Assembly (NCBI RefSeq): GCF_014145675.1
Contig: NZ_JACGZW010000001.1
Location: 310,001-374,000 of the forward strand
Source of the DNA: Amycolatopsis dendrobii
Lineage (GTDB): Bacteria; Actinomycetota; Actinomycetes; Mycobacteriales; Pseudonocardiaceae
Reading direction: 5' to 3'
DNA: 64,000 nt
Shown here one piece after another: positions 1-28,935 of this stretch. The notes under the pieces were generated by a model. That model was not told the origin of the DNA. It did not search any database and saw only the letters and a list, made by a program, of their open reading frames with translations. Position 1 is the stretch's first letter. Each line of letters starts with the position of its first letter. The translations under genes were made by a program, and so were the position numbers.

Positions 1-350
1 TTCGTCCCCGGCGGTCCGCACCGTTGCCGCCGCGGACCGAGGTCGAGCAGACCGTGCTGCGGGTGTGGCAGGAAGTCCTCGCCGACCCCTGGGTCGACGT
101 CGGGAGCAATTTCTTCGATGCCGGCGGGACGTCGTTCCTGCTGCTGGACGTCGCCGTGCGGCTGGAGGCAGAGCTCGGCGTCGAGGTCCCGGTGCTGACC
201 TTGCTGGAGCATCCCACGGTCGCCGCGGCCGCCCAGCAGCTCACCGCCTCCGGCGAGGACGACTCCGCGCCGGCCGAGGACCGCGTCGCGAAACAGCGGG
301 CGGCGATGGCGAGGATGCGGCAGCGGCGCGTCGGACAGGACGGCGCGTGA
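1..350 (+). CDS. C-terminal carrier-protein domain of an NRPS/PKS protein (5' truncated by window edge)
   Basis: The reading frame is open from base 3, so the gene starts upstream of the window. About 115 residues are visible and form one phosphopantetheine carrier domain. The attachment serine lies in FFDAGGTSFLLL, where the usual GG(D/H)S reads GGTS. The tail after the domain is short, charged and rich in Arg/Met, as is common at C-terminal docking ends of modular synthases. The stop codon TGA overlaps the ATG of the PKS gene (TGATG), so the two are translationally coupled. It presumably delivers the starter or first aminoacyl/acyl unit to the following KS domain; that is inference from gene order. 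Whether the missing upstream part is an adenylation, ligase or PKS module cannot be told. Confidence 0.85.
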   Translation, partial: RPRRSAPLPPRTEVEQTVLRVWQEVLADPWVDVGSNFFDAGGTSFLLLDVAVRLEAELGVEVPVLTLLEHPTVAAAAQQLTASGEDDSAPAEDRVAKQRAAMARMRQRRVGQDGA

Positions 351-3300
351 TGCAGGACGCCATCGCGATAACCGGCATGGCCGGGCGCTTCCCCGGTGCT
401 GGGGACGTCGACCAGTACTGGCGCAACATCCGGACCTCGACCGAGTCGATCTCCTTCTACACCAAAGACGAACTGCGTGCGGAGGGGTTCGACGAGGAGA
501 CCCTCGCGAATCCGGATTTCGTGGCGGCCGGTGGCGAACTCGCCGGCAGTTCGCTCTTCGACGCGGCCTATTTCGGCTACTCGCCGCGCGAGGCCGAGCT
601 GATCGACCCGCAGCAGCGCGTGTTCCTCGAATGCGCGAGCGCCGCGCTGGAGCGGGCCAACGTGGTGCCGAATCCGCGGCTGCGCGTCGGCGTGCTCGGC
701 GGCGCAGGGATGAACACCTACCTGGTGCAAAACGTACTGGCGCATCCCGAGCTGATCGACCCGGCACTCGCGCCGCAGGTCATCATCAGCAACGACAAGG
801 ACTACCTGGCCCTGCGCGTGGCGTACAAGCTCGGCCTGCAAGGTCCTGCGCTGACGGTCCAGACCAGCTGTTCGTCCTCGCTGGCGGCGGTTCACCTGGG
901 TTGTCGGATGCTGCTGACCTACGACTGCGACGTCGTTCTAGCGGGTGGTGCCACCGTCTCGTCGCCGCAGCGGCGCGGGTACGTCTACCAGCGAGGCGGC
1001 GTAGCGTCGCCGGACGGGCACTGCCGGGCCTTCGACGCTCGCGCCGATGGGCTCGCCCCCGGCTCAGGCGTCGGCGTCGTCGTGCTGAAACGCTTGGAGG
1101 AGGCGCTCGAGAACCGGGATGTGATCCACGCCGTGATCCGCGGCTCGGCGCTCAACAACGACGGATCGGCCAAGGTCGGGTTCACTGCGCCGAGCGTGGC
1201 TCTGCAGGCCGAAGCGGTCGCCGAAGCCCTCGCCTCGGCCGGGGTTGACGCGGCGTCGATCGGCTACGTCGAGGCACACGGCACCGCGACGCGGCTCGGC
1301 GACCCGATCGAGGTCGCCGCGCTCACCCGCGCGTTCCGCCGCACCAGCACGGCGACCGGATTCTGTGCGCTCGGCTCGGTGAAGACGAACATCGGACACC
1401 TCGACGCCGCCGCCGGCGTGGCCGGGCTGATCAAGACCGCGATGGCGCTGCGCCACCGGGAACTCCCGCCGAGCCTCAACTTCGAGCAGCCCAATCCGCA
1501 CATCGACTTCGCCGGCAGCCCGTTCTTCGTCAACGTCGCCGCTCGTCCCTGGGAGGCGGACGGACCGCGCCGGGCGGGGGTCAGCGCGTTCGGGCTCGGC
1601 GGTACGAATGTCCATGTGGTTCTGGAGGAAGCGCCCCCGCGTCCGGAACCCGAGCCGTCGCCCTGGCCCCAGCTGCTGCTCAGCTCGGCCCGCTCGCCCG
1701 CCGCGCTGAGCGCGGCGCGCACCGAACTCGCCGATCATCTGGCCGCGCGTCCCGGCGTCGCGTTGGCGGACGTCGCGCATACCCTGCTCCGCGGGCGGCA
1801 GCCGCATCCACACCGGCTCGCGACCGTCGCCGCGGACGCGGCGGAAGCAATCGATCTGCTGCGGGACCCCGCTGCGGGAGTCGAGGCGGGCACTGCGGAC
1901 CTGATCTTTCTGTTCCCCGGCGTGACGGAAGTGCCCAGGGGAGCCGGGAGCGAGCTGTATCGCCGGTACGGGGTGTTCCGTGAGGCGATCGACGAGTGCC
2001 GGCCGCAGGCGGACGTGCTGTTCACCGGGCCGTCCCGGCCGAGGGACGCGGCGGTCGCCACGTTCGCGTCGAGCTACGCACTTGCCCGGTTGCTGCTGTC
2101 GTGGGGGCTGGCGCCGCGTGCGATGGTCGGCCACAGCATGGGGGAGTACGTTGCCGCGGTCCTGGCCGGCGTGCTTCCGACGGCCGACGCGCTCCGGCTG
2201 GTCTTGCTGCGGTACGAGCTGCTCGAGCGGATTCCGTCCGGTGCGATGCTCAGCGTGCCGTTGTCCGAAAAGGACATTCGTCCGCTGCTGCGCGAGGATC
2301 TCGACGTCGCTGCGGTGAACACTGCCGGATCCACCGTGGTGTCCGGGCCGGTGGCCGCGATCGAGCGACTGGAATTCGAAGCGAAGGAACGCGGTGCGGA
2401 CCCGGTCCGGCTGCGCGTGCCGGTCGCGACGCATTCCGCTCTGCTCGAACCGGTTCTCGGCGAGTTCGCGGCCGCGGTCGCCTCGACACCCTTCGCCGAA
2501 CCACGCCTGCCTTACGTTTCGTCGTTGACCGGCACCTGGGCCGACGCGGCCGAGGTGTGCCGCGACGAGTACTGGGTGCGGCAGTTCCGCGAAACCGTGC
2601 GATTCGCCGACGCACTCGACACCTTGCCTCCCGACGCCGTCGCCGTCGAGGTCGGGCCCGGCCGTGCGCTCGCTTCGCTCGCCCGGGCACACGGCCGGTT
2701 TCCGTGCTGGCCGCTGCTGCCGACTCGCCGCGCCCGCTCGGAAATGACCGAGTTTCTCGGCGCGGTCGGCCAGCTCTGGCAGTCCGGTGCCGACCTCTCC
2801 GCCGCGGAGATCGCCGCAGACGAGACCCGCGCTTACGCCGAGCTGCCGACATACCCGTTCGAACGGCAGTCCTACTGGCTCGGCGCCGGCCGTGCAGCGG
2901 CCGCCGAAGAGGGGATCCGCTACGCGTCGCCGCTTTGGCGCCGGGCGCCGTTGCAGCCGACGGCTCGCGAAGACACGACCTACCTCGTGCTCGCCGACGG
3001 AGCCGCGGGCACCGAGGTCGCTCGTATGCTGCCCGGCCGGGTCGAATTGGTCACCGCGGGCGTGGACTTCGCGCGTGGCGACGTCGAGGACTACGTCAAG
3101 GTGCTGAAGTCGCTCGACGTCCCGCCGACCGACATTGTGCACGCCTGGCACGACGACGGCGGCTTGCTCGGCCAGGCGTACGACGCTTTGCGGTTGCCCG
3201 GGCCCGACCGGACCTGGCGGCTCGTCGACCGCGTCCACGACGTCACCGGCACCGAGGCCTTGCTGCCCGGCCCCGACGGAGCCGTCGACCACACCGTCGA

Positions 3301-4252
3301 TGTCGACCCCGCCGACCCCGCGGCGGCAGTCCGGGAAATCGGCGGCGGCAACGACCCGGTCGTGGCGTACCGCGGCGTGTATCGCTGGACTCGTTCTGTC
3401 GAGCCGGTCGCCCTCACCGTGCCTGGCGAGAGTGCACTGCGTTCCGGCGGGCTGTACGTGCTGTCCCGCGACAGCGCAGTGTTCGGCGAACACCTCGCCG
3501 ACCGCTGCGGAGCGAAGGTGGTGATCCTCGACGCCGGCACCGAGACGGCGATGCTGCGGAGCATCCGGGACGTCAGGGCGCGGCACGGCGCGATCGACGG
3601 CGTGATCCTACCTGCGCGATTGCTCGATCCGTACGCGCTCGCCGAAGCGCTCGGCGGCGGCGATCCGTTGTGCATACTGCATTCCGGCCCCGAGATCCCC
3701 GCGCCGATCGAGACCGCCGTCCGCGCGCTCAACCGGGAGGGCGGCCGCTGGCTCGTGGTGAGCTGGGACGGCAGCGTGGGGCCGGACGACGTCGGCGACG
3801 TCCTGGAGCGGGTCGCGGCAGTCCCGGAGCACGGGGTGCTCTTCGTGTCCCGCCCCGGCGGCCGGCAACGAGAAAACGCCGCCGGGTCCCCGGAAGAGCA
3901 CAGCTCGCGGCACGGCCGCCCGTCGTTGCCGACCCCGTACCTGGCCGCTCGCAACGACATCGAGGCCGAGCTGGTCGGCATCTGGGAGGAGGTCACCGGG
4001 ATCGCCCCTCTCGGCGTGCACGACGACTTCTTCGCCCTGGGCGGCCATTCGCTGATGGGAACTCAGGTCGTCGCCCGTCTGCGTGCCGCGTTCGGCGTCG
4101 ACTTCCCGCTGGCCCGGCTGTTCGACTCGCCGACGATCGCCGAGATGGCCCAGGTCGTCGTGCGGCTCGCGGCCGAAGCGGACGACACCGGCCTGGAAGC
4201 GCTGCTGGCTGAGATCGAACTGTCCTCCGACGACCCTGCTGCTGATGGGTGA
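350..4252 (+). CDS. type I polyketide synthase, KS-AT-(degenerate KR-like)-ACP
   Basis: A single PKS extension module of 1300 aa. The ketosynthase spans about residues 1-425, with catalytic Cys174 in TSCSSS, His310 in HGTATRLGD and His350 in KTNIGH. The KS resembles those of NRPS/PKS hybrids (FDAAYFGYSPREAELIDPQ). The acyltransferase spans about 500-860 with nucleophile Ser596 in GHSMGEY; malonyl use is likely but not certain. Residues about 890-1190 look like a ketoreductase structural plus Rossmann region, but no GxGGxG dinucleotide motif or catalytic Tyr is recognisable. This part is probably inactive, leaving a beta-keto product. The ACP near the C-terminus has Ser1234 in LGGHSLMG. The ATG at 350 overlaps the upstream stop. 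The NRPS gene follows after 7 bp, so the two proteins should act consecutively. Confidence 0.93.
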   Translation: MQDAIAITGMAGRFPGAGDVDQYWRNIRTSTESISFYTKDELRAEGFDEETLANPDFVAAGGELAGSSLFDAAYFGYSPREAELIDPQQRVFLECASAALERANVVPNPRLRVGVLGGAGMNTYLVQNVLAHPELIDPALAPQVIISNDKDYLALRVAYKLGLQGPALTVQTSCSSSLAAVHLGCRMLLTYDCDVVLAGGATVSSPQRRGYVYQRGGVASPDGHCRAFDARADGLAPGSGVGVVVLKRLEEALENRDVIHAVIRGSALNNDGSAKVGFTAPSVALQAEAVAEALASAGVDAASIGYVEAHGTATRLGDPIEVAALTRAFRRTSTATGFCALGSVKTNIGHLDAAAGVAGLIKTAMALRHRELPPSLNFEQPNPHIDFAGSPFFVNVAARPWEADGPRRAGVSAFGLGGTNVHVVLEEAPPRPEPEPSPWPQLLLSSARSPAALSAARTELADHLAARPGVALADVAHTLLRGRQPHPHRLATVAADAAEAIDLLRDPAAGVEAGTADLIFLFPGVTEVPRGAGSELYRRYGVFREAIDECRPQADVLFTGPSRPRDAAVATFASSYALARLLLSWGLAPRAMVGHSMGEYVAAVLAGVLPTADALRLVLLRYELLERIPSGAMLSVPLSEKDIRPLLREDLDVAAVNTAGSTVVSGPVAAIERLEFEAKERGADPVRLRVPVATHSALLEPVLGEFAAAVASTPFAEPRLPYVSSLTGTWADAAEVCRDEYWVRQFRETVRFADALDTLPPDAVAVEVGPGRALASLARAHGRFPCWPLLPTRRARSEMTEFLGAVGQLWQSGADLSAAEIAADETRAYAELPTYPFERQSYWLGAGRAAAAEEGIRYASPLWRRAPLQPTAREDTTYLVLADGAAGTEVARMLPGRVELVTAGVDFARGDVEDYVKVLKSLDVPPTDIVHAWHDDGGLLGQAYDALRLPGPDRTWRLVDRVHDVTGTEALLPGPDGAVDHTVDVDPADPAAAVREIGGGNDPVVAYRGVYRWTRSVEPVALTVPGESALRSGGLYVLSRDSAVFGEHLADRCGAKVVILDAGTETAMLRSIRDVRARHGAIDGVILPARLLDPYALAEALGGGDPLCILHSGPEIPAPIETAVRALNREGGRWLVVSWDGSVGPDDVGDVLERVAAVPEHGVLFVSRPGGRQRENAAGSPEEHSSRHGRPSLPTPYLAARNDIEAELVGIWEEVTGIAPLGVHDDFFALGGHSLMGTQVVARLRAAFGVDFPLARLFDSPTIAEMAQVVVRLAAEADDTGLEALLAEIELSSDDPAADG

Positions 4253-4259
4253 ACCCGAC

Positions 4260-7200
4260 ATGACGACAACGCCCCGCGACCCCGAGCTCGACCGGCGGAT
4301 CGCCGCGCTTTCCCCTCGTCAGCAGGAACTGCTGATGCGACGGTTGCGCGAGCACCGCGCGACTGCGCCGGACGAACCGCCGATTGTGCGGCGTCCGGTG
4401 ACCCGCGCGCCGCTGTCGTACGCGCAGCACCGGCTTTGGTTCGTCGACCAGCTTGACCCGGGCACGCCGCATTACAACGTCGCAATCGCCGTGCCGGTCC
4501 GCGGCGCTGTCGACACCGATGTGCTGCAGCAGGCCGTCGACGACCTGGTCCGCCGCCACGAAGCGCTGCGTACCACGTTCGAACTCGACGACGAGACACC
4601 GGTTCAGGTGGTCCACGAGCACGTCGCCGTGCCGTTGGCCGTCCGGGACCTCCACCGCGAGGACGACGTCCAGGAAGCGGTGGGCGAGTTCTCCCGGCAG
4701 CCCTACGACCTCGCCGCCGGGCCGCTGGTCCGGTTCCTCGTGCTGCGGCTCGGCGAGCGGGAGCACGTGCTGGGCATCGCGATGCACCACATCGTCTCCG
4801 ACGCGCGGTCGATCGAGATCGTGCTGCGCGAGCTCGGTGCGGCCTACGAGGCGTTGCGCCGCGGAATCGTCGGGGCGTTGCCCGAACCCGACCTGCAGTA
4901 CGCGGATTTCGCCCTCTGGCAACGGGAAAAGCTGCAGGGGGAGGTTCTCGAACGCCAGACCGGGTACTGGCGGCTGCAACTGGCCGGGGAACTGCCGCCG
5001 CTGCAGCTGCCGGCCGACCGTGCCCGGCCCGCCGAACCGCTGTTCACCGGCAAGCAGCGGCTGCACGAGCTGCCCGCTGAGGTCAGCGCACGGCTGCATG
5101 CCCTGACAGCCGAAGAGCGCACCACGCCGTTCGCGCTGTTCTTCACCGCGATCGCTGCGCTGCTGCATCGCTACACCGGGCAGGACGACCTGGTCGTCGG
5201 CGCGCCCATCTCGAATCGCTCGCGCACCGAGCTCGAAGGCACTGTCGGGTATCTCGGGAACACCCTTGGGCTGCGCGCCGACCTCAGCGGCGAGCCGACG
5301 TTCCGGGACGCCCTGCGCCGCAACCACAAGGTCGTCTTCGACGCCCTCGCGAATCAGGATCTGCCGTTCGACAAGGTTGTCGAGCTCGCTCAGCCTGAGC
5401 GCGACTTGAACCGCACTCCGCTGGTACAGGTCATGTTCGTGTACCACACCGACGAGAACCGCGCGGACGAGGCGGCAGGACGGGAACTGAGCATCGGTGC
5501 GCCGTTGGTGATCGACAACGGCACGGCCAAGTTCGACCTCACGTTCAGCGTGCGCCATCGAGACGGCGCGACCCTCCTGGCGCTCGAATACTCCACCGAG
5601 TTGTTCGATCCGGCGACGATCGACCGGCTCGTCGGGCACTGGGAAACGCTGCTGGGCGCGGCAGCCGCCGATCCGGACACTCCGATCGGACGGCTGCCGC
5701 TGCTCGCCGAGGCTGAACGACGCACCATCATCGAGAGCTGGAACGCGACGGCTGCGCCGTTTCCCGAGCAGTCCTGTCTGCATGAGCTGATCGAGGAGAA
5801 CGCCGCGGCGAGCCCCGGCGCTGTCGCCGCCGCCGACGGGTCCCGCACCCTGACCTATCGCGAACTGGACGAGCGGGCGAACCGGCTCGCCCGCCACCTG
5901 CGCACGTTGGGCGCCCGACCGGACGTCCCGGTCGCCGTGCGCCTGGACAAGTCGGTGGACGTGGCGGTAGCGCTGCTCGGCATCCTGAAGTCCGGCAGCC
6001 CTTACCTGCCGCTGGATCCGGCAGGCCCGGCGGCCCGGACCGAGCACATGCTCGCCGAAGCGGAAGTGCCGGTGCTGCTCACGCGCGCCGGACTGCCCGG
6101 CCGTGGCGTCCCTGAGACGTTGACGACGGTGTTGATCGACGAGGACTGGCCGGTGATCGAGCAGCGGTCCGCTGCCAAGCCCGATGTGGCGGTGACCGCC
6201 GGGGATCTCGCATACGTCATCTATACCTCGGGGTCGACTGGGACGCCGAAGGGCGTGATGGTCGACCACCGCGGGCGTGTCAACAACTTCCACGACTTCA
6301 ATACGCGGTTCGCCGTCGGAGCCGGCGACGCCGTGCTTGCGCTCGCCTCCTTGACGTTCGACATGTCCGCCTACGACGTCCTCGGCACGCTCATGGCGGG
6401 TGCCCGGATTGTTTTTCCGGCCCCGGGGGCTGACCGGGACCCGGCGGACTGGCTGGAGCGGATGCGGGCCGAGCGGGTGACGGTATGGCATTCCGTGCCC
6501 GCGCTGCTGGAGATGCTCGTCGAGTATCTGGAGGCCGAAGGCGCCACCCTGCCCGATCTCCGGCTGGTGCTGCTCGGCGGCGATTGGGTCCCGCGCACGC
6601 TCCCAGCGCGGATTCGCGCGGCCGCGCCCGGAGCGCGGGTCGTCGTCATGGGCGGTGCCACCGAGGTGTCGATGGACTCGACTATCCACGAGTTGCGCCC
6701 GGACGACGAAACCATCCCGTACGGCAGGCCGATGGCCAATCAGCGCGCCTACGTTCTCGATTCGCGTCTCCAACCCGTCCCGGTCGGCGTCGCCGGCGAT
6801 CTCTACCTCGCCGGGGTCGGCGTCGGCCGCGGGTACCTCGCGAATCCCGAACTCACTGCCCAGAAGTTCCTCGAAAGCCCGCTGCCGGAGGAACCCGGCC
6901 GGATCTATCGGACCGGCGATCTGGCCCGCTACCGCGCGGACGGCAACCTCGAACTTCTCGGCCGCTCCGACTTCCAGATCAAGATCCGCGGCTGGCGCAT
7001 CGAACCCGGAGAGATAGAGGCCGTCGTGCGGGAGCACGCCGCGGTCAAGGACTGCCTGGTCGTCGCGCAGACCGTCGGCAACGGGACGAAACGGCTCGTC
7101 GGCTACCTGCTGCCGAGGGGCCCGCTCGACCTCGCAGACGTGCGGGACTGGACGGAGGCGCGACTGCCGGATTACCTGGTGCCCTCGGCGTTCGTCGTCC

Positions 7201-8900
7201 TCGACCGGCTTCCGCTGACCGCCAACGGCAAAGTGGACCTGCGGAACCTGCCGAGCCCCGCCGCGGCCCAGGACGCGCCGCCGGTCGAGCCGCGGAGCGG
7301 CGCGGAGCGGACGCTCGCGGAAATCTGGCAGGAGTTGCTCGGCGGCGTCCAGATCGGGATCGACGACAACTTTTTCGCGTTGGGCGGCGACTCGATCAAG
7401 ACCATCCAGACCATCGCCCGGGCGAAGAAACGCGGGTTGCGGCTGACCCCGCGCCAACTGTTCCAGCACCAGACGATCCGGGATCTGGCCGCCGTCGCGG
7501 AGACCGTCGAACCGCAGCCGGCGGCGGCAGCAGCGCTTCTGCCCGCTGAAACGCTCGCGAGACTCCGTGCCGAGCACGAGGATTTCGAGGACGCGTACCC
7601 GCTTCCGCCGATGCAGCGCGTGATGTACGAGCAGGCGGTGCACGAGCCGCCGGAAGGGCTCTACATCATCCACGCCGACTATTTCTTCACCCCTGGCGGA
7701 CTTGACACCGGACTGCTTGTCCAGGCGTGGCAAGCGGTGATTGACCGTTATCCCGTGCTGCGCAGCACTTTCCACGCAGACGGTCTCGACGAGCCGGTCC
7801 AGGTGGTGCACCGCACGGCGAGCGTCGTGGTCGAACGGCACGACCTGCGCGGCATGACGACCGAAGAGCAGTTGCGGCGGCAGGACGAAATCGTCTCCGA
7901 CGACCGCCGCCGCGGGTATGACTTGACCCGCGCGCCCCTCGTGCGGCTGCTTCTGCTGCGGCTAGACGACGATGCTTGCAAGTACATCAGCTCGAACCAC
8001 CACATCGTGCTCGACGGCTGGTCGCGGGCGATCGTGCAGCAGGAAGTCTTCGCCGTCTACGAAGCGCTTCGCCGTGGCGAGCGGGCCGCCTTGCCGCCGT
8101 TCCGGCCTTTCCGCGACTACATCTCCTGGGTGCGCGCACAAGACACCGCTGGCGCCCGCGAAACCTGGGCGCGCTACCTGGCTGGTTTCACCGAGCCGAC
8201 GCCGTTGGTCGCGGCACGCGGCGTCCCCGACCCTGCCCGGACCGGACCGTTCGCCAAACAGAGCATCGCGCTCGACGCGGATGCCGCCGCGCGTCTCGAC
8301 CGGTTCACGCGTACGCACCAGATCACGCAGAACACCGTGATGCAGGCGGCGTGGTCGCTGCTGATGTGCCGCTACACCGGCCGTCGCGACGTCGTGCTCG
8401 GCGTGGTGTCGTCCGGACGCACCACCGAACTCGACGAGATCGACACGGTCGTCGGCCTGTGCGTCAACGCGCTGCCGGTGCGGACCGTGGCCGATCCGGA
8501 AGAGCCCCTGCTGCCGTTCCTCATCCGCCAGCAGCAGGAACAGGTCGAGCTGCGCGAACTCGACCACACTCCGCTGGCGGAGATCAGCGGCGTGCTCGGG
8601 TTCGCCGGCGCGCCGTTCGAGACGATCATGGTCTACGAGAACTATCCGTGGGACGGTTCGCTGGTCGCGCTGGCCGACCGGGTGTCGTTCGACCATCCGT
8701 TGTGCCGGCCGGACTATCAGCTCGCGCAGTTCGAATACCCGCTGAGGGTCGAGGTCGCACCCGGCATCCCGCTGCTGATCATGCATTACTACACCGACTC
8801 GTTCGCCCATGCGGCGATCTCCGAGATGCTTGCCGACTGGGCGGCCGCGATCGACCTGATGGTCCGCGACCCGCGACAGCCGCTCGGGAGTTTGCTGTGA
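4260..8900 (+). CDS. nonribosomal peptide synthetase, C-A-PCP-C
   Basis: A 1546-aa NRPS. The N-terminal 40 residues form a charged helical linker. The first condensation domain (about 40-480) has HH at 176-177 in HHIVSDA, so the Gly after Asp of the usual HHxxxDG is Ala. The adenylation domain (about 490-960) has YTSGSTGTPKG near 655 and a GGATE motif. Its specificity pocket begins Asp701, Met702, Tyr705, which I cannot assign to a substrate. The PCP serine is Ser1045 in LGGDSIK. The protein ends in a second full condensation-type domain (about 1105-1546) with HHIVLDG at 1247, and there is no thioesterase or reductase. The ATG at 4260 follows GGGTGA; an ATG at 4245 in frame is an alternative. 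The last domain may release the product onto a free nucleophile or pass it to a synthetase outside the window. Confidence 0.93.
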   Translation: MTTTPRDPELDRRIAALSPRQQELLMRRLREHRATAPDEPPIVRRPVTRAPLSYAQHRLWFVDQLDPGTPHYNVAIAVPVRGAVDTDVLQQAVDDLVRRHEALRTTFELDDETPVQVVHEHVAVPLAVRDLHREDDVQEAVGEFSRQPYDLAAGPLVRFLVLRLGEREHVLGIAMHHIVSDARSIEIVLRELGAAYEALRRGIVGALPEPDLQYADFALWQREKLQGEVLERQTGYWRLQLAGELPPLQLPADRARPAEPLFTGKQRLHELPAEVSARLHALTAEERTTPFALFFTAIAALLHRYTGQDDLVVGAPISNRSRTELEGTVGYLGNTLGLRADLSGEPTFRDALRRNHKVVFDALANQDLPFDKVVELAQPERDLNRTPLVQVMFVYHTDENRADEAAGRELSIGAPLVIDNGTAKFDLTFSVRHRDGATLLALEYSTELFDPATIDRLVGHWETLLGAAAADPDTPIGRLPLLAEAERRTIIESWNATAAPFPEQSCLHELIEENAAASPGAVAAADGSRTLTYRELDERANRLARHLRTLGARPDVPVAVRLDKSVDVAVALLGILKSGSPYLPLDPAGPAARTEHMLAEAEVPVLLTRAGLPGRGVPETLTTVLIDEDWPVIEQRSAAKPDVAVTAGDLAYVIYTSGSTGTPKGVMVDHRGRVNNFHDFNTRFAVGAGDAVLALASLTFDMSAYDVLGTLMAGARIVFPAPGADRDPADWLERMRAERVTVWHSVPALLEMLVEYLEAEGATLPDLRLVLLGGDWVPRTLPARIRAAAPGARVVVMGGATEVSMDSTIHELRPDDETIPYGRPMANQRAYVLDSRLQPVPVGVAGDLYLAGVGVGRGYLANPELTAQKFLESPLPEEPGRIYRTGDLARYRADGNLELLGRSDFQIKIRGWRIEPGEIEAVVREHAAVKDCLVVAQTVGNGTKRLVGYLLPRGPLDLADVRDWTEARLPDYLVPSAFVVLDRLPLTANGKVDLRNLPSPAAAQDAPPVEPRSGAERTLAEIWQELLGGVQIGIDDNFFALGGDSIKTIQTIARAKKRGLRLTPRQLFQHQTIRDLAAVAETVEPQPAAAAALLPAETLARLRAEHEDFEDAYPLPPMQRVMYEQAVHEPPEGLYIIHADYFFTPGGLDTGLLVQAWQAVIDRYPVLRSTFHADGLDEPVQVVHRTASVVVERHDLRGMTTEEQLRRQDEIVSDDRRRGYDLTRAPLVRLLLLRLDDDACKYISSNHHIVLDGWSRAIVQQEVFAVYEALRRGERAALPPFRPFRDYISWVRAQDTAGARETWARYLAGFTEPTPLVAARGVPDPARTGPFAKQSIALDADAAARLDRFTRTHQITQNTVMQAAWSLLMCRYTGRRDVVLGVVSSGRTTELDEIDTVVGLCVNALPVRTVADPEEPLLPFLIRQQQEQVELRELDHTPLAEISGVLGFAGAPFETIMVYENYPWDGSLVALADRVSFDHPLCRPDYQLAQFEYPLRVEVAPGIPLLIMHYYTDSFAHAAISEMLADWAAAIDLMVRDPRQPLGSLL

Positions 8901-11239
8901 ATGCCGACACGAGCCTCGCCGCCGCGCTGACTGCGGAGCCGGACCCGCCCGGCCGCCGGAGCACGCCGTGGGCAGCGCTCTCGGCCGTGCTGCTGGTCCT
9001 TGCCGCGGTCACCGGGGTCGTGGCGGCGCGCCAGAGCCCGGACCCCGCTCCAGCCGACGCCCCGGCTACGGCCTTCTCAGCTGGCCGGGCAATGGCGCAC
9101 GTCGATGCCGTGGCCGGCGCGCCGCGGCCGACCGGGTCGGCCCGTCTGGAGAAAGCACGGCAGTACCTGGTCGCCGCGCTGCGCGGGCTCGGTCTGAACC
9201 CGCAGACGGTCACCAGGACGGCGTGCCGGGACCAGCCGGACGCCGAGGCGACCTGCGGCCGCGTCACCGATTTGCACGCACTCATCCCGGGCGCCCAGCA
9301 CGGTGGCACTGTCGTCCTTGTGTGCCACTACGACTCCAATCCCGGCGGCCCGGGTGCCGCGGACGACGGGTTCGGCGTCGCCACCCTGCTCGAAACCGCG
9401 CGGGCGCTCCGAGCGGGGCCACCGCAGGAGAACGACGTCATGCTGCTGTTCACCGACGGCGAAGAGGCTGGCCTGCTCGGCTCACGCGCCGCGCTCGACG
9501 CGGGCCTGCTGCCCGACCCGGCGCACAGCGTTGTGCTCAACCTCGAAGCGCGCGGCGTGTCCGGCCCGGCGGTGATGTTCGAAAGCTCGGCGAGCAACTC
9601 GGCTGTGGTCAGCGCCCTGCGGGACGACACCGCGGACGCGGCCTCGTTGTCCTCATTGGTGTACGGACTTCTGGGCAGCGACACGGACTTCAGCGAGTTC
9701 CGCGCGGCGGGACGGTCCGGTATGGGTTTCGCCGTCGTCGGCGGCTCGGCCCGCTACGACACCGCTTTGGACAGCATCGCGAACGCGGACCCGAGCGGCC
9801 TGCAAGACCTGGGGAACGCAATCCTCGCCGCCACCCGGAACCTCGCGGCGGCGAACCTGTCGGCGACAGTCGACGACGGGCCCGCGACGTACTTCCCGGT
9901 CTTCGGCCGCCTGGTGGTCTACCCCGAGTTCGTCGATCTCGTGGCCGCGATCCTGGCATTGGCGGTTCTGGTCACAGCGCTGGCGCTCGGACGCCGGCGG
10001 CGGACGGTGCGGCTGTCCGCCGTACTGGCGGGGGGCGGGGGACTGGCGGCCACGGTCGTCGTCGCGGGCGGGTTGGGACTCGCTCTTTGGGAACTGATCC
10101 TGCTGGTCCGTCCTGACTACGTTGGTTTCCTTTCCGGCAATCCGTTCCGCGCGGATTTGCCGGACGTCGGCGCGGCAGTGATCGCCGTGGCGGTCGCCGT
10201 CGTGTGGTGGCTGGTGGCGCGCCGCCGCGTCGAGCCGCTCGAGACGTCGCTTGCAGTGACTGCGGTGCTGGCGGTGGCGGGCGTCGCCGCGGCGGTCCTC
10301 ATCCCCGGCGCGAGCTACCTCCTGGTGTGGCCTGGGCTAGGGGGCGCGGCCGCAAGCCTGGCCGCGGTCCTGGCGCCCGACACCCGTTGGCATGCACTGT
10401 TCTGGGCACTGCCGGCGGCGGTCGCCGTCGTGCTGGTGCTCCCCGTGGCACTTCTGCTGTTTCCCGTCACGGGGCTCGCCATGGTGGCGGCGCCAATGGT
10501 CCTGCTCGCGCTGCTGGCGGCGGCGGTCGTTGCCGGGCTCGCGGCACCTCGGATGCGTCGCCGCACCGTTGCCGCGACGGCTGCCGTACTGGTACTGGCA
10601 GGCCTCGCGCTGACCGGCACGGGGCTCGCCCGGGACACCGTAGACGCGGCGCACCCCAAGGAACTCTCGATGATTTACGGTCTGGACGCCGACACCGGTC
10701 AAGCGAACTGGCTGAGCCCGTACCCGGCAGCCGAACCGTTCGTCGACCACTACGTGGGCCAGGACAGCCGGGGCTGGACGGACCGGTACCCGTTGCTGCT
10801 GGCCCCCGCCTACCGGTCCGGGAAGGCGGCATTCGTCTCCGTCGCCGCTCCTGCTGTAGACCGGCTCGCCAGCACGCCGCTCGCCGAGGGCCGGGTACTC
10901 CAGCTGCGGTTGCACTCGACCCGCCCGGACGCCACCGCGCTGGCCGTGTACGTCGATACGGCCGCGACGCCGGTGGTCCGCGCGGAGGTCGAGGGACGTC
11001 CGGTCAGGGGCGGAATAAACCACGATGCCTCGTATGGGTGGGGCTGGGGTGCCACCTTCGTGGGCGGCGAGGCGGACCTCCGCCTGACGGTCGCCGGAAA
11101 CCGGCCGGTGCGCCTGCGGGTTCTTGCGCAGACGCCGGGCTTGCCGTCAGCCGCGATGGATCTGCCGATGCCGGACACCGTTGCTGGTGCCAGTTTTCCG
11201 TCGATCCAGACCCTCGCGGCCCGCACCGTGACGTATTGA
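8897..11239 (+). CDS. membrane-anchored M28-family metallopeptidase
   Basis: 780 aa. One transmembrane segment lies near residues 25-42. An M28 zinc-aminopeptidase-like domain follows, and then a C-terminal half with about eight or nine hydrophobic segments and a final extracytoplasmic beta-rich region, as in ERMP1-like proteins. Zinc-site residues seen: His144 (CHYDS), Asp156 (AADDG), Glu189/Glu190 (DGEEAG), Glu217 (LNLEARG). Where the family normally has a late YHT His ligand, this protein reads YDT (Asp288). The GTG start overlaps the NRPS stop (GTGA), so it is made with the synthetase. A role in processing or activating the assembled product at the membrane is plausible by analogy with peptidases in other NRPS clusters, but is inference. 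Confidence 0.85.
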   Translation: MNADTSLAAALTAEPDPPGRRSTPWAALSAVLLVLAAVTGVVAARQSPDPAPADAPATAFSAGRAMAHVDAVAGAPRPTGSARLEKARQYLVAALRGLGLNPQTVTRTACRDQPDAEATCGRVTDLHALIPGAQHGGTVVLVCHYDSNPGGPGAADDGFGVATLLETARALRAGPPQENDVMLLFTDGEEAGLLGSRAALDAGLLPDPAHSVVLNLEARGVSGPAVMFESSASNSAVVSALRDDTADAASLSSLVYGLLGSDTDFSEFRAAGRSGMGFAVVGGSARYDTALDSIANADPSGLQDLGNAILAATRNLAAANLSATVDDGPATYFPVFGRLVVYPEFVDLVAAILALAVLVTALALGRRRRTVRLSAVLAGGGGLAATVVVAGGLGLALWELILLVRPDYVGFLSGNPFRADLPDVGAAVIAVAVAVVWWLVARRRVEPLETSLAVTAVLAVAGVAAAVLIPGASYLLVWPGLGGAAASLAAVLAPDTRWHALFWALPAAVAVVLVLPVALLLFPVTGLAMVAAPMVLLALLAAAVVAGLAAPRMRRRTVAATAAVLVLAGLALTGTGLARDTVDAAHPKELSMIYGLDADTGQANWLSPYPAAEPFVDHYVGQDSRGWTDRYPLLLAPAYRSGKAAFVSVAAPAVDRLASTPLAEGRVLQLRLHSTRPDATALAVYVDTAATPVVRAEVEGRPVRGGINHDASYGWGWGATFVGGEADLRLTVAGNRPVRLRVLAQTPGLPSAAMDLPMPDTVAGASFPSIQTLAARTVTY

Positions 11240-11265
11240 CGGCCCGATCACGAAACGAGGCGCCC

Positions 11266-11925
11266 ATGCTGACCACGGTCGAAGCGATCAACGCCCGCTG
11301 CTCGACACCGCGGCTCGCGGAACCCGGCCCGACCGGTGCCGAACTGCGGTCCCTGTTCCGTGCGGCGGCCGCCGCACCCGATCACGGCAAGTGCAAGCCA
11401 TGGCGTTTCGTCGTGGTCCCGCCCGCATATGCCGACGACTTCGGCGAAGTGCTCGAACAGGCTTATGTTCGACGCTGCGCGCTCGCCGGCGACGATGTCG
11501 ATGCGGAACGTTGCGCACGTGAACGCACCCGCCTGCGCCGCGCGCCGACGTTCGTTGTGGTCGTCTGCCAGCCTCGGACCGACCTGAAGATCCCGCTGCA
11601 CGAACAACAAGCGGCGGTTGCCGCGGCGACCCAGAACTTGCTCCTGGCAGCCACGTCGATGGGCTACGGATCGATGTGGGCCACCGGTGCCGCGGCCACT
11701 GACCCTACAGTGAGGGAAGCGCTGCAACTCGGCCCGAAAGACACCATCGTCGGCTTCGTCTACCTCGGCAGCCTCCCGACGAGCCGGGAACGGCGCGGCC
11801 CACGCCGGGATACGGATGTCTCCGCTGTCGTCCGAACCTGGGCACCCGCGGCGAAAGGGCGTCCCGATCCGGCGCCGGCTACGGCTTCGAAAGCGCGGAG
11901 TGATCGGAGGATGTCTGGCATCTGA
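11266..11925 (+). CDS. nitroreductase-family (YdjA-like) flavoprotein
   Basis: 219 aa, with the short single-domain nitroreductase fold (FMN, NAD(P)H). N-terminal segments APDHGKCKPWRFVVV match the R/H-x-W-R-F flavin-binding region. ATQNLLLAATSMGYGSMWATG is the central helix, and IVGFVYLGS the conserved C-terminal strand. It starts 26 bp after the peptidase gene behind ACGAGG and is very likely part of the same transcript. Such enzymes in biosynthetic clusters dehydrogenate or reduce the scaffold; which one applies here is unknown. The last 30 residues are Pro/Ala/Arg rich and probably disordered. It is the last recognisable gene of the cluster. Confidence 0.85.
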   Translation: MLTTVEAINARCSTPRLAEPGPTGAELRSLFRAAAAAPDHGKCKPWRFVVVPPAYADDFGEVLEQAYVRRCALAGDDVDAERCARERTRLRRAPTFVVVVCQPRTDLKIPLHEQQAAVAAATQNLLLAATSMGYGSMWATGAAATDPTVREALQLGPKDTIVGFVYLGSLPTSRERRGPRRDTDVSAVVRTWAPAAKGRPDPAPATASKARSDRRMSGI

Positions 11926-26288: not shown

Positions 26289-27236
26289 CTAGGGACGGTC
26301 GGTGAGATACCCGCCCATGGTCGTGAAGTATTCCGCCGCCGACAGCTCCCGGTCGTCGGCCGTCCGGACGCGTTCGATCCGCAGCCCCGGCGACTGGCCG
26401 CGCCGCGCGTCCCGGCCCGCGACGATCACCACGCCCTCGCCTTCGCGGATGAAGATGCGGCCCGGAGTTCCGCCGTAGCGGCCGTCCGAAACCGAGGCGC
26501 GCACGATGCGCAGCTGCTCGCCGCGGTGGTAGGCGAAGGCGTTGGGGTACGGGTCGGATTGGGCGCGCACCAGGCGGTCCAGTTCCTCGGCGGACCACGT
26601 CCAGTCGATGAGACTGTCGCGCGGGGCGCGTTTGTGGAAGAAGCTCGCCTTCGTCCGGTCCTGCGCGATCGGGACCACCGTGCCGGATTCGATGAGGCCC
26701 AGTGCTTCGGTCACGAGCGGTTCGATGAGATCCACGGTGCGGTGGAACAGATCCGTGGCGGTGTCGCGCGGGCCGACCGCGACCGCGCGCTGGGCCACGA
26801 TGTCGCCCGCGTCGAGTTCGTCGTTCATCATGTGCGCGGTGACGCCGACTTCCGGCTCGCCGTTGATCAGCGCCCAGATGATGGGGGAGAAGCCGGCGTA
26901 GGCGGGCAGCAGCGAGTCGTGCACGTTGAGCGTGCCGTGGCGCGGCAGGGTGAAGATCTCCGGCGGCAGCCAGGTGCGCCAGTTGTTCGCGACGATCAGG
27001 TCGAGGTCCGCGGCCTTCAGCTCGTCGAGCAGTTCCGCGTCGTCCGGGCGGGTGCGCAGCAGGGTGCGGATTTCGTGCTCTCCGGCCAGTGCGGCGACCG
27101 AATCGCTCCAGATCCGTTCGTAGGCGTGGTCGCTCGGCGGGTGGGTGACCACCAGTCGCACGTCCTGGCCTGCGTCGAGGAGGGCCTTCAGGGTGCGGTG
27201 TCCCCAGGTCTGGTAGCCGAACATGGCCACGCGCAT
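26289..27236 (-). CDS. N10-formyl-THF-dependent formyltransferase, siderophore type
   Basis: 315 aa. The Fmt-like catalytic domain shows the substrate-binding NVHDSLLPAYAGFSPIIWALING and the general catalytic triad region (Asn in VANNW, His in NVHDS, Asp in NDELDAGDIV). A shortened C-terminal OB-like domain follows. Similar enzymes formylate N5-hydroxyornithine in coelichelin-type hydroxamate siderophores. The divergent neighbour is an ornithine N-oxygenase, and the shared promoter carries iron-box-like sequence, which supports that role over tRNA formylation. The start at 27236 is preferred over the upstream ATG at 27272 because AAAGG lies about 10 bases before it. Confidence 0.85.
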   Translation of the reverse strand: MRVAMFGYQTWGHRTLKALLDAGQDVRLVVTHPPSDHAYERIWSDSVAALAGEHEIRTLLRTRPDDAELLDELKAADLDLIVANNWRTWLPPEIFTLPRHGTLNVHDSLLPAYAGFSPIIWALINGEPEVGVTAHMMNDELDAGDIVAQRAVAVGPRDTATDLFHRTVDLIEPLVTEALGLIESGTVVPIAQDRTKASFFHKRAPRDSLIDWTWSAEELDRLVRAQSDPYPNAFAYHRGEQLRIVRASVSDGRYGGTPGRIFIREGEGVVIVAGRDARRGQSPGLRIERVRTADDRELSAAEYFTTMGGYLTDRP

Positions 27237-27282
27237 CGGCGGTGCACCTTTCGTGGTCGGGACGAACATCACCCAGACAGTA

Positions 27283-27301
27283 CTAGTTGAGGCTTACCTA
27301 A
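27283..27301 (-). promoter_or_regulatory. candidate IdeR/DmdR iron box
   Basis: Read on the minus strand, TTAGGTAAGCCTCAACTAG matches the actinobacterial iron-box consensus TTAGGTTAGGCTAACCTAA at about 13 of 19 positions. It sits in the divergent promoter between the formyltransferase and N-oxygenase genes. Confidence 0.6.
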
Positions 27302-27302
27302 G

Positions 27303-27321
27303 TTAGGTTAGGGTTTCTTGA
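27303..27321 (+). promoter_or_regulatory. second candidate iron box
   Basis: TTAGGTTAGGGTTTCTTGA matches the iron-box consensus perfectly over its left ten bases and about 14 of 19 overall. It lies directly beside the previous box, 53 bases before the N-oxygenase start. Paired or overlapping boxes are usual for dimeric IdeR pairs. Confidence 0.6.
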
Positions 27322-27373
27322 GCATTGGTCAGTCGGGAACGGTGATGCGGCAGTGCCGCGCTAGGGGACTTTC

Positions 27374-28711
27374 ATGTCACGAGCAGGGGCCGAGGACAGC
27401 CAGGTGCCGGTGTACGACGTGGTCGGAGTCGGGTTCGGGCCGTCCAACCTCGCGCTCGCGATCGCCCTCGCCGAGCACAACGCGGGCTCGGGGGAGACGG
27501 TCACGGCGCACTTCCTGGAGCGCCAGCCCCGCTTCGGCTGGCATCGCGGGATGCTGATCGACACCGCGACCATGCAGGTGTCGTTCCTCAAGGACCTGGT
27601 GACGATGCGGAACCCGGCGAGCGCGTACACCTTCCTGAACTATCTGCACGAGAAGGGGCGGCTGGTCGATTTCATCAACCACAAGACCCTGTTCCCGCTG
27701 CGCGTCGAGTTCCACGACTACTTCGAATGGGCCGCGGCGAAGGTCGACGACCTGGTGTCCTATGGCAGCGAAGTCGTCTCGGTCGAACCGGTCCGCGACG
27801 GCGACGAGATCGCGTTCTTCGACGTGCGCGCCGAGGCGGACGGCGAAATCACCGAACTGCGGGCGCGGAATCTCGTGCTGGGCACGGGATTGCGCGCGAA
27901 GCTGCCGGACGGGGTCGTCGCCGGAGAGCGGATCTGGCACAACAGCGAACTGCTGCGCCGCGTCGAGTCGTTGCGCGGCACGGACGCGCGGCGGTTCGTG
28001 GTGATCGGCGCCGGCCAGAGCGCGGCCGAGGTCGCCGCTTTGCTGCACGACGAATTCCCGCGTGCCGAGGTGTGCGCGGTGTTCGCGCGCTATGGCTACA
28101 GCCCCGCGGACGACAGTGCGTTCGCCAACCGGATTTTCGACCCGGAGGCGGTCGATTCCTTCTACGCGGCAAGCGAACCGGTCAAGGAACGCCTCATGCG
28201 CTACCACGGCGCGACGAACTATTCCGCGGTCGATCTCGACCTCATCGACGAGCTGTACCGGCGGCGCTACCAGGAAAAGGTGCTCGGCGTGGAACGGTTG
28301 CGGCTGTTCAACGTTTCGCGGCCGATCGAGGTCGCCGACCAGGGCACGCACGTGCGCGCGACGGTCGAATCGCTGGCGACCGGCGAACGTTCGGTGCTGG
28401 ACGCCGACGCCGTCGTCTACGCGACCGGCTACCACCCCGCCGACCCGGTGCCGCTGCTCGGCGGCCTGGCCGGCGAATGCCGCCGGGACGGCCAGGGCCG
28501 GTTGAAGATCGAACGCGACTACCGGATCACCACCGGTCCGGCCGTGCGCGGCGGGCTCTACCTGCAGGGCGGCACCGAGCACACGCACGGGATCACGTCG
28601 TCGCTGCTGTCGAACACCGCGGTGCGGGTGGGCGAGATCCTGAAGTCCATTGTGGACCGGCGGGCGGTCGGATCCGATCCGGTCGAGTACGCGGTCAGCG
28701 GGATCCGCTGA
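27374..28711 (+). CDS. L-ornithine N5-monooxygenase (SidA/IucD/PvdA family)
   Basis: 445 aa. FAD motif GVGFGPSNLALAIAL is near the N-terminus, then FLERQPRFGWHRGMLID and the substrate segment MQVSFLKDLVTMRNP. The NADPH motif is VIGAGQSAAEVA, followed by ATGYHP, and the C-terminal GLYLQGGTEHTHGITSSLLS. These identify an N-hydroxylating monooxygenase acting on ornithine or lysine. The adjacent formyltransferase suggests that N5-formyl-N5-hydroxyornithine is the product. The ATG at 27374 follows GGGGACTTTC. It is first in an operon with the MbtH gene and lies behind two candidate iron boxes, so it should be induced by iron limitation. Confidence 0.92.
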   Translation: MSRAGAEDSQVPVYDVVGVGFGPSNLALAIALAEHNAGSGETVTAHFLERQPRFGWHRGMLIDTATMQVSFLKDLVTMRNPASAYTFLNYLHEKGRLVDFINHKTLFPLRVEFHDYFEWAAAKVDDLVSYGSEVVSVEPVRDGDEIAFFDVRAEADGEITELRARNLVLGTGLRAKLPDGVVAGERIWHNSELLRRVESLRGTDARRFVVIGAGQSAAEVAALLHDEFPRAEVCAVFARYGYSPADDSAFANRIFDPEAVDSFYAASEPVKERLMRYHGATNYSAVDLDLIDELYRRRYQEKVLGVERLRLFNVSRPIEVADQGTHVRATVESLATGERSVLDADAVVYATGYHPADPVPLLGGLAGECRRDGQGRLKIERDYRITTGPAVRGGLYLQGGTEHTHGITSSLLSNTAVRVGEILKSIVDRRAVGSDPVEYAVSGIR

Positions 28712-28731
28712 GGCGGGGAAGGGACTGAGCC

Positions 28732-28935
28732 ATGACGAATCCGTTCGAAAACCCGGACGGCGTTTACCGGGTCCTCGTGAACGACGAGGGCCAGCACAGC
28801 CTGTGGCCGGACTTCGTGGCCGTGCCGGACGGATGGCGGACCACCTTCGGGCCGGACGCGCGGCAAGCCTGCCTGGACCACATCGAGCGGACCTGGACCG
28901 ATCTGCGCCCGCTTTCGCTGCGCCGGACTTCCTGA
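28732..28935 (+). CDS. MbtH-like protein
   Basis: 67 aa, full length for the family. It shows the MbtH signature: [24 protein letters not shown], then the conserved Trp and Pro residues in VPDGW and the C-terminal [14 protein letters not shown]. MbtH proteins bind and activate NRPS adenylation domains. It lies 20 bp after the N-oxygenase gene behind GAAGGGA. No NRPS is present in this locus; the nearest one in the window is 20 kb away, so its partner may be encoded elsewhere. Confidence 0.95.

Follow-up and report, generated by a model that had tools for sequence, protein, structure and literature searches.

The window, by which we mean the whole 64,000-nucleotide stretch analysed here, corresponds to C1:310001–374000 of the 9.69 Mb genome of Amycolatopsis dendrobii; a window coordinate is the C1 coordinate minus 310000. 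Its first part carries a run of closely spaced genes with the following features:

1..350, + strand: 3′ end of NRPS2 (whole gene C1:307246–310350, with a C-like domain without HHxxxD, an A domain and a PCP; domain and motif scan)
350..4252, + strand: 1300-aa PKS module with KS, AT, a shrunken KR-like linker and ACP, in this order (Pfam)
4245..8900, + strand: NRPS3, C-A-PCP-C, starting at ATG 4245 or 4260 (Pfam, for 4260..8900: two Condensation, AMP-binding, PP-binding)
4407..5708, + strand: first C domain of NRPS3, following the PKS, HHIVSDA (residues 55–488 of the 1551-aa reading)
5781..7238, + strand: A domain of NRPS3, code DMYHLGMMDK, GGATE motif
7305..7493, + strand: PCP of NRPS3 (GGDSI)
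7599..8894, + strand: terminal C domain of NRPS3, HHIVLDGWS, DCL group, where the protein ends (motif, tree)
8897..11239, + strand: M28 membrane metallopeptidase, 780 aa, whose GTG start overlaps the NRPS3 stop
9059..9886, + strand: M28 catalytic domain, residues 55–330
9929..10633, + strand: bundle of eight predicted membrane helices, residues 345–579
10658..11233, + strand: C-terminal beta-rich domain of the M28 protein, residues 588–779
11266..11925, + strand: protein of the nitroreductase family, with which the run of genes closes (Pfam Nitroreductase, E 4.7e-21)

The genes for NRPS2 and the PKS overlap by 1 nt, those for the PKS and NRPS3 by 8 nt (taking ATG 4245 as the start of NRPS3), and those for NRPS3 and the peptidase by 4 nt (GTGA); a gap of 26 nt lies between the peptidase and the nitroreductase genes. 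These stop-to-start overlaps, together with the Pfam matches, confirm the sequence-only reading of a hybrid PKS/NRPS line with a coupled M28 peptidase gene; the three proteins are a KS-AT-ACP PKS, a C-A-PCP-C NRPS and the M28 peptidase. The window PKS gave no Pfam match for a KR, and its counterpart in Micromonospora lutea has one. The A-domain code of NRPS2, DMTKVGEVGK, is one that we take from the code tables to be Asn-like.

These genes lie at the 3′ end of a single, divergent NRPS-PKS cluster. Its assembly line begins upstream of the window with a FAAL-NRPS (C1:275223–282815), followed by NRPS1—to the end of which a TauD-type hydroxylase is fused—and NRPS2. These upstream genes rule out a line that starts inside the window, which holds only part of it. 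The FAAL domain is assigned by its nearest solved chains, and a fatty acid is very probably the starter of the line. The cluster also contains two stand-alone thioesterases (C1:270627–271367 and 283036–283812) and a pair of A-PCP-TE proteins that lack a C domain (C1:285216–288236 and 288637–291264); hence, the claim that a thioesterase is missing holds for the last protein of the line only and fails for the cluster. Genes that might complete the line, which the sequence-only reading would have counted against itself, are thus present in part, with the two C-less A-PCP-TE proteins as possible acceptors for the terminal C domain. No C domain was matched at E 10 by the N-terminal 190 aa of the A-PCP-TE protein at 285216. 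Among the A-PCP-TE proteins compared, those of G239/G022 come closest, at 32–34% identity.

That NRPS3 stops after a complete C domain is borne out by domain order and motif: HHIVLDG is kept, and one residue follows the domain before the protein ends. With its motif intact and 54% of its residues shared with the counterpart in M. lutea, the domain is not a decayed or merely truncated copy. The nearest solved chains are McyB, PvdL, BacC, and SrfA-C. In a quick tree, with references labelled as DCL or LCL by the order of domains around them, the terminal C joins the DCL (D-donor) domains—that is, in the usual class names, C domains directly after an epimerisation-type domain. One set of six rows (SH-aLRT 97) comprises four DCL references from the same genome and the two terminal C domains of the window and of M. 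lutea; of the other three DCL references, two are placed in the next set (11 rows, SH-aLRT 94, one LCL-labelled row) and the third elsewhere. The terminal C domains of other M28-linked lines (G110, G214, G066) do not group with that of the window in this tree, and the window domain no longer fell together with the A-PCP-C proteins of G239/G022 once references were added. Hence, the terminal C and the M28 peptidase do not form one conserved package. It is a speculation that NRPS3 loads a D- or α,α-disubstituted residue, perhaps from an SHMT-like enzyme of the cluster.

M. lutea, which belongs to another family, bears a sister cluster that retains both the terminal C and the M28 gene. Its C-A-PCP-C protein is 53.6% identical to NRPS3 over 1562 aligned positions and likewise stops at the C domain (HHIVLDG, eight residues after the domain), which argues that this ending is not due to chance. 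The SHMT-like enzyme is 69% identical between both clusters. In the stretches C18:44000–99726 and C19:1–40000 of M. lutea, where NRPS1 crosses a contig end, no A-PCP-TE protein was found, and the nitroreductase gave no BLAST match at E 1e-10.

The peptidase matches Pfam Peptidase_M28 with 121.8 bits (cut-off 21.3, E 3.7e-35). Its M28 domain has the zinc-aminopeptidase fold and matches aminopeptidases; M28 enzymes of known structure are mostly aminopeptidases. At E ≤ 0.01 the only profiles to match are those of M28, M20, and M42. None is an S12 profile, and on this profile search membership in the S12 family of ClbP was rejected. A predicted helix at residues 24–44 is followed by the soluble M28 domain and then by membrane helices—about nine helices in total—and by prediction the catalytic domain is placed on the outer side. 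A weak fold likeness to the GPI-transamidase chain 8imy_G was seen at Foldseek rank 31. The metal-site residues H144, D156, E189/E190, and E217 are kept; H144, D156, E189, and E190 are invariant across 35 sequences. In the clade of the M28 tree to which the window protein belongs, the first four metal-site positions and the catalytic Glu (H, D, EE, E/D) are identical, or E/D at the fourth, in 21/21 rows. The fifth ligand is Asp in the window (D288) and in 11 of the 21 clade rows, the window included; outside the clade, this position is His in 65 of 66 rows, Arg in one and Asp in none. Asp could still bind the metal, but with Asp as the last ligand the activity of the enzyme is not certain.

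The tree holds 87 rows including the window and was drawn from 100 loci, 80 of them being the best 80 of 328. Eleven loci (L090, L113, L114, L119, L129, L130, L145, L147, L150, L156, and L157) were dropped, since a simple gene caller trained on the high-GC Amycolatopsis genome gave no M28 gene longer than 500 aa there, and three duplicates (L045, L051, L057) were removed; L090 adjoins synthetase genes, and the other ten dropped loci come from other phyla. Within about 10 kb, synthetase genes are found for 19 of the 21 clade members, the window included, whose label was set by hand. Outside the clade, the counts are 5/12 in the sister set, 2/33 in the neighbouring clade, 4/16 and 1/5, giving 12/66. 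A FAAL lies within 40 kb of 15 of the 21 clade members; for four none was found and two were untestable. FAALs also lie near a few M28 genes that do not belong to the clade (L087, L103, L105), and one of six outside loci used as a control was positive. As at most 76 first-look candidates per genome were scored, the four blank results and the five empty outside loci weigh less than full searches would. Two clade members are a single polypeptide with an MFS exporter, and a 4-nt overlap between an M28 and an MFS exporter gene was also found, one of the two MFS queries having been taken from a clade member. The lines that accompany the clade are chemically diverse—of a LysX/transketolase type, a diaminopropionate type (assigned by eye) and a hybrid type—and the first-module A-domain codes differ among the FAAL lines, so that the leader residue is not constant. 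Among plasmid records, 14 had a match and none covered 80% of the query.

Membrane peptidases are known from several assembly-line clusters. Extracts of four papers describe SfmE (saframycin A), NapG (naphthyridinomycin; AGD80614.1), and DinC (dnacin B1) as stripping an NRPS product of its cryptic acyl or leader peptide (PMC11285072, PMC7570522, PMC9854587, PMC9570651); they name no peptidase family for these enzymes. By description rather than by sequence, these systems share with the window cluster a fatty-acyl start, a membrane-bound peptidase within the cluster and actinomycete hosts, and DinC, at 741 aa by the same extracts, is near the size of the window M28 family. As far as described there, however, their lines end in a reductase and make tetrahydroisoquinolines, whereas the window line is an NRPS-PKS hybrid that ends in a C domain. 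The sequence-only reading could not tie its route to a known cluster beyond the likeness to ClbP; going by these extracts, tetrahydroisoquinoline biosynthesis is the closest known logic besides ClbP. ClbP, XcnG, AmiB, and ZmaM (colibactin, xenocoumacin, amicoumacin, zwittermicin) are membrane peptidases with an outside catalytic domain that cut an N-acyl prodrug motif; for the window enzyme, the outside position is predicted and the cleavage proposed. They are S12 serine peptidases acting on an N-acyl-D-Asn motif, with three membrane helices in ClbP; the window enzyme, in contrast, belongs to the M28 metallopeptidases, has roughly nine predicted helices and comes from a clade whose lines vary in their leader codes. 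Longer ZmaM-like forms fused to ABC-transporter parts, mentioned in the extract of PMC9889268, parallel the MFS fusions of the two M28 relatives. A CAAX protease-like protein in didemnin maturation, where according to an extract of PMC10811503 a prodrug of an assembly-line cluster is cleaved as it is exported, is from a different peptidase family than the window M28. For the terminal C, the glidonin putrescine module offers an example of a line-end C domain that couples the chain to a free amine (extract of PMC10587159); there, partial A, T, and TE domains follow, whereas nothing follows in the window. In the literature searched, mostly outside subscription papers, no M28 peptidase was found in a prodrug-maturing role among the papers listed, M28 appearing only in a maggot-enzyme paper, and a FAAL review made no mention of peptidase, prodrug, leader or saframycin.

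Taken together, we consider it rather probable that the cluster makes an N-acyl prodrug, that this is exported and that M28 removes its leader at export, with the terminal C joining a last amine. Because of the FAAL start, the peptide would carry an acyl cap from the outset, together with a leader part at its N-terminus. The chain would then be extended by NRPS1, NRPS2—with the TauD-type hydroxylase on NRPS1—one PKS module and NRPS3, and the terminal C might couple it to a last amine for release or for onward passing. The acylated precursor would leave via an MFS protein, and the M28 metallopeptidase would cut off the acyl leader to free the mature product. Aminopeptidases need a free N-terminus; hence, an N-acylated substrate would require endo- or acylamino-type action. 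Lipopeptides often retain their acyl tail, and a FAAL alone does therefore not imply cleavage. Trimming of a prodrug by the membrane peptidase, as proposed from the first look at the sequence, is thus supported by the FAAL start, the synthetase neighbours of 19/21 and FAALs of 15/21 clade members and the fused or overlapping MFS genes, and falls short of proof. More tentatively, and with slightly more doubt than trust, the clade may be an actinomycete counterpart of ClbP and ZmaM: at export, it would strip the acyl leader off NRPS and NRPS-PKS products that come from many FAAL-initiated lines and are unrelated to each other, sometimes fused to its MFS exporter and in half of the cases with the last ligand changed from His to Asp. 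As it is joined here to a line ending in a D-donor C, both ends of the peptide would receive an unusual finishing.

The ending of the line also permits another route, in which the terminal C condenses the chain in trans with the aminoacyl-PCP of a C-less A-PCP-TE protein whose TE then releases the product. This is a serious possibility towards which we lean somewhat less, and it is compatible with a later prodrug step. The two C-less A-PCP-TE proteins are present in the cluster, and in M. lutea an A-PCP protein lacking a C domain occurs along with a PCP that stands alone; yet, M. lutea retains the terminal C with no A-PCP-TE protein found in the stretches given above. Moreover, the A-PCP-TE protein at 288637 sits in the same run as a SyrB2-like chlorinating enzyme (above the cut-off), and this pair is a usual set-up for producing a modified free amino acid.

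For the peptidase, self-resistance is an unlikely explanation: M28 would degrade returning product or would be a drug-insensitive copy of the target if the product were an aminopeptidase inhibitor. The aminopeptidase matches are in keeping with this, and so are the eight further PF04389 matches in the genome; the exchange of the last His for Asp (11/21 in the clade, 0/66 elsewhere) could mean an altered, insensitive enzyme. However, a search of the own genome with the M28 protein gave one match at E ≤ 1e-20, and among the four of 35 first-look candidates scored none was a second full-length copy of the 780-aa membrane form. A single target would also not explain the chemically different lines beside the clade, and the exporter fusions fit maturation better. 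It is highly improbable that the gene encodes a housekeeping peptidase of the membrane that lies beside the synthetase by coincidence. Members of the wider M28 membrane family are indeed common outside such clusters, occurring in 63 of 249 same-family genomes (four candidates per genome scored), and 12 of 20 contexts gave no match to any synthetase domain query. For the clade of the window enzyme, however, conservation apart from such clusters, which the sequence-only reading had named as refuting it, is not what is seen (19/21 beside synthetases against 2/33 in the neighbouring clade). The 4-nt overlap with NRPS3, this co-occurrence and the conservation of M28 beside the sister cluster in another family speak against a chance neighbour, a reading that was rejected.

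If the clade does mature acyl-capped precursors at export, its genes would flag clusters whose products might be dangerous to their maker until uncapped. They would thus be easy markers in the search for new potent compounds, and chemists would have two products to look for, the capped precursor and its trimmed form. The fusion of MFS and M28 would then be a metallopeptidase version of the known peptidase–transporter fusion—the same logic in another fold. The terminal DCL domain, in turn, offers a clear test of which amine ends such chains. In a search of 79 other genomes of the genus with six candidates scored in each, no NRPS3 match above 45% identity was among the matches listed; one of the same-genus genomes (G297) carries a 1498-aa protein of similar extent, which also stands at the end of its line.

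NRPS3, the C-A-PCP-C synthetase of the window, stops one residue past a complete C domain with the motif HHIVLDG, which confirms the sequence-only reading that the synthetase ends in a condensation domain. In a tree whose references are domains of the same genome—among them seven C domains placed right after epimerisation-type domains—this terminal C, its Micromonospora lutea counterpart and four of the seven form a six-row set (SH-aLRT 97). Owing to this grouping, the terminal C classifies by sequence as DCL-like, i.e., as taking a D-donor, despite NRPS3 having no epimerisation domain. Its acceptor may be a free amine, for which the passages on glidonin (PMC10587159) give a precedent at a C domain, or an aminoacyl-PCP in trans.

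The 9.69-Mb genome, whose contig C1 carries the window at 310001-374000, contains 46 condensation-type matches, several of them just upstream of the window. In the stretch of the window's contig read for the cluster (C1:262000-341999), the genes form two divergent runs.

Leftward run:
P450
PKHD-type oxygenase
Thioesterase
ACT protein
GntD/VioC-like arginine or enduracididine beta-hydroxylase, scoring above the GntD cut-off
Homoserine-dehydrogenase-like protein
C1:273868-275223, SHMT-like protein
C1:275223-282815, FAAL-NRPS
MbtH
Second thioesterase
MFS exporter
A-PCP-TE protein (without C domain)
Rightward run:
C1:288637-291264, A-PCP-TE protein, A code DVQFVAHLVK
C1:291251-292138, upstream of the window, SyrB2-like chlorinating enzyme (TIGR01762, 308 against a cut-off of 226 bits)
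Asp/Arg-hydroxylase-like, haem-oxygenase-like, desaturase-like and PhzF-like proteins
NRPS1, (C-A-PCP)x3-C with a C-terminal TauD part
NRPS2, followed by the window's PKS, NRPS3, M28 (membrane metallopeptidase) and nitroreductase genes

Ten of the 11 joints in the rightward run overlap or leave less than 25 nt; the remaining one measures 26 nt. The chlorinating enzyme adjoins the rightward A-PCP-TE protein, and its presumed iron motif, HQV, bears no carboxylate, as in halogenases.

A sister cluster lies on two contigs of M. lutea, covered at C18:44000-99726 and C19:1-40000. Identities are 46.6% for FAAL-NRPS (2622 positions), 39% for NRPS2, 48.6% for the PKS (878 positions), 53.6% for NRPS3 (1562 positions), 69% for the SHMT-like, 58% each for the homoserine-dehydrogenase-like and GntD-like proteins, 59% for ACT, 50% for the thioesterase, 63% for PKHD, 54% for MFS and 47% for M28. 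The module after the FAAL (fatty-acyl-AMP ligase) bears the code DSAEVAEVWK in both clusters. As M. lutea keeps the terminal C as well as M28, both belong, judged by sequence, to the shared core. The covered stretches showed no A-PCP-TE protein, and BLAST at E 1e-10 found nothing there to match the nitroreductase, the chlorinating enzyme or the haem-oxygenase-like, desaturase-like and PhzF-like proteins.

The nearest solved chains of the FAAL domain are fatty-acyl-AMP ligases; hence, the chain very probably carries an N-acyl group. FAAL-NRPS has a shrunken second A domain. Within NRPS1 and NRPS2 (C1:295643-310350), the former closes with a C domain (HHIVTDA) and the TauD part, and the latter starts with a C-like domain devoid of HHxxxD; M. 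lutea C19:1-5516 shows the same split. The window's PKS carries a shrunken KR-like stretch (window 2750-3960) without a Pfam KR match, unlike its M. lutea counterpart (E 1.8e-16), and may thus leave a keto group in place.

M28 relatives (E <= 1e-20) occur in 63 of 249 same-family genomes, own genome counted. A single scan of named genomes supplied the best 80 of 328 loci. On an 87-row tree, a label for synthetase domains within about 10 kb requires 10 changes, whereas shuffled labels require 25.9 and none of 500 shuffles comes down to 10. Labelled rows number 19 of 21 in the window's clade (window counted), 5 of 12 in its sister set, 2 of 33 in a neighbouring clade, 4 of 16 in a mixed-phylum set and 1 of 5 remaining rows. 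A FAAL lies within 40 kb of M28 in 15 of the 21 clade members, nine directly seen (the window's own counted) and six found by paired searches; it was not found within 40 kb for four, and two more sit on broken contigs. At six outside loci, the same searches found a FAAL 6 kb from M28 once (L087) and none on the M28 contig at the other five. Restricted to the fetched loci, a FAAL is counted at 5/20 clade loci versus 3/66 others.

Two clade proteins, from Kitasatospora mediocidica (1220 aa, L081:8603-12265) and Streptomyces sp. ISL-36 (1301 aa, L082:8354-12259), are natural fusions of an N-terminal MFS exporter to M28, with Pfam matches to both. At L083 and L084, and at L049 outside the clade, an MFS gene and the M28 gene overlap by 4 nt. 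Searches with two query proteins, one taken from a clade member, place an MFS-like gene or gene part at 8/20 clade loci versus 1/66 others.

An AlphaFold2 model of M28 built from 35 sequences (mean pLDDT 91.2, pTM 0.90) comprises one N-terminal helix, the M28 domain, a membrane-helix bundle and a beta-rich end domain. The M28 domain resembles zinc aminopeptidases and retains the metal-site residues except the last His, replaced by Asp at residue 288 (window 9758-9760); this Asp occurs in 11/21 clade rows versus 0/66 others.

The best reading is that a precursor would be made with an acyl cap, would leave the cell by export and would afterwards be trimmed by M28. The earlier proposal of condensation onto a free amine and membrane trimming is partly supported and widened, with a free amine or an aminoacyl-PCP as possible acceptor. 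Precedent exists for each single element. The nearest known cases, compared by description, are SfmE, NapG and DinC of saframycin A, naphthyridinomycin and dnacin B1 (PMC11285072, PMC7570522, PMC9854587, PMC9570651); the passages on related systems hold no description of the overall combination, the MFS–M28 fusions or the Asp site. ClbP and ZmaM would resemble the proposal in logic only; ZmaM-like forms, in the passage on them, bear an ABC-transporter part (PMC9889268). If SfmE and NapG fall inside the 21-row clade, the window's M28 would be a further member of their kind.

Besides the one at C1:273868-275223, SHMT-like enzymes lie near M28 in the fetched flanks of 4/20 clade loci (L080:6719-8101; L083:18351-19733; L084:16788-18170; L086:18814-20154) versus 0/66 others, and also in M. 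lutea and, by eye, G174. Other M28-linked clusters bear a LysX-like ligase together with paired halves of a transketolase, by Pfam at L093:16742-21039 and by eye in G029, G110 and G214 (L045, L049, L062 and neighbours)—the latter three with LysW-like genes and G029 and G110 with sulfate-activation genes, also by eye—which suggests azabicycle-type products. Elsewhere, window 26289-28935 holds a formyl transferase and a Lys/Orn N-monooxygenase (Pfam) near ABC exporters and an MbtH-like gene recognised by eye, perhaps part of a siderophore cluster.
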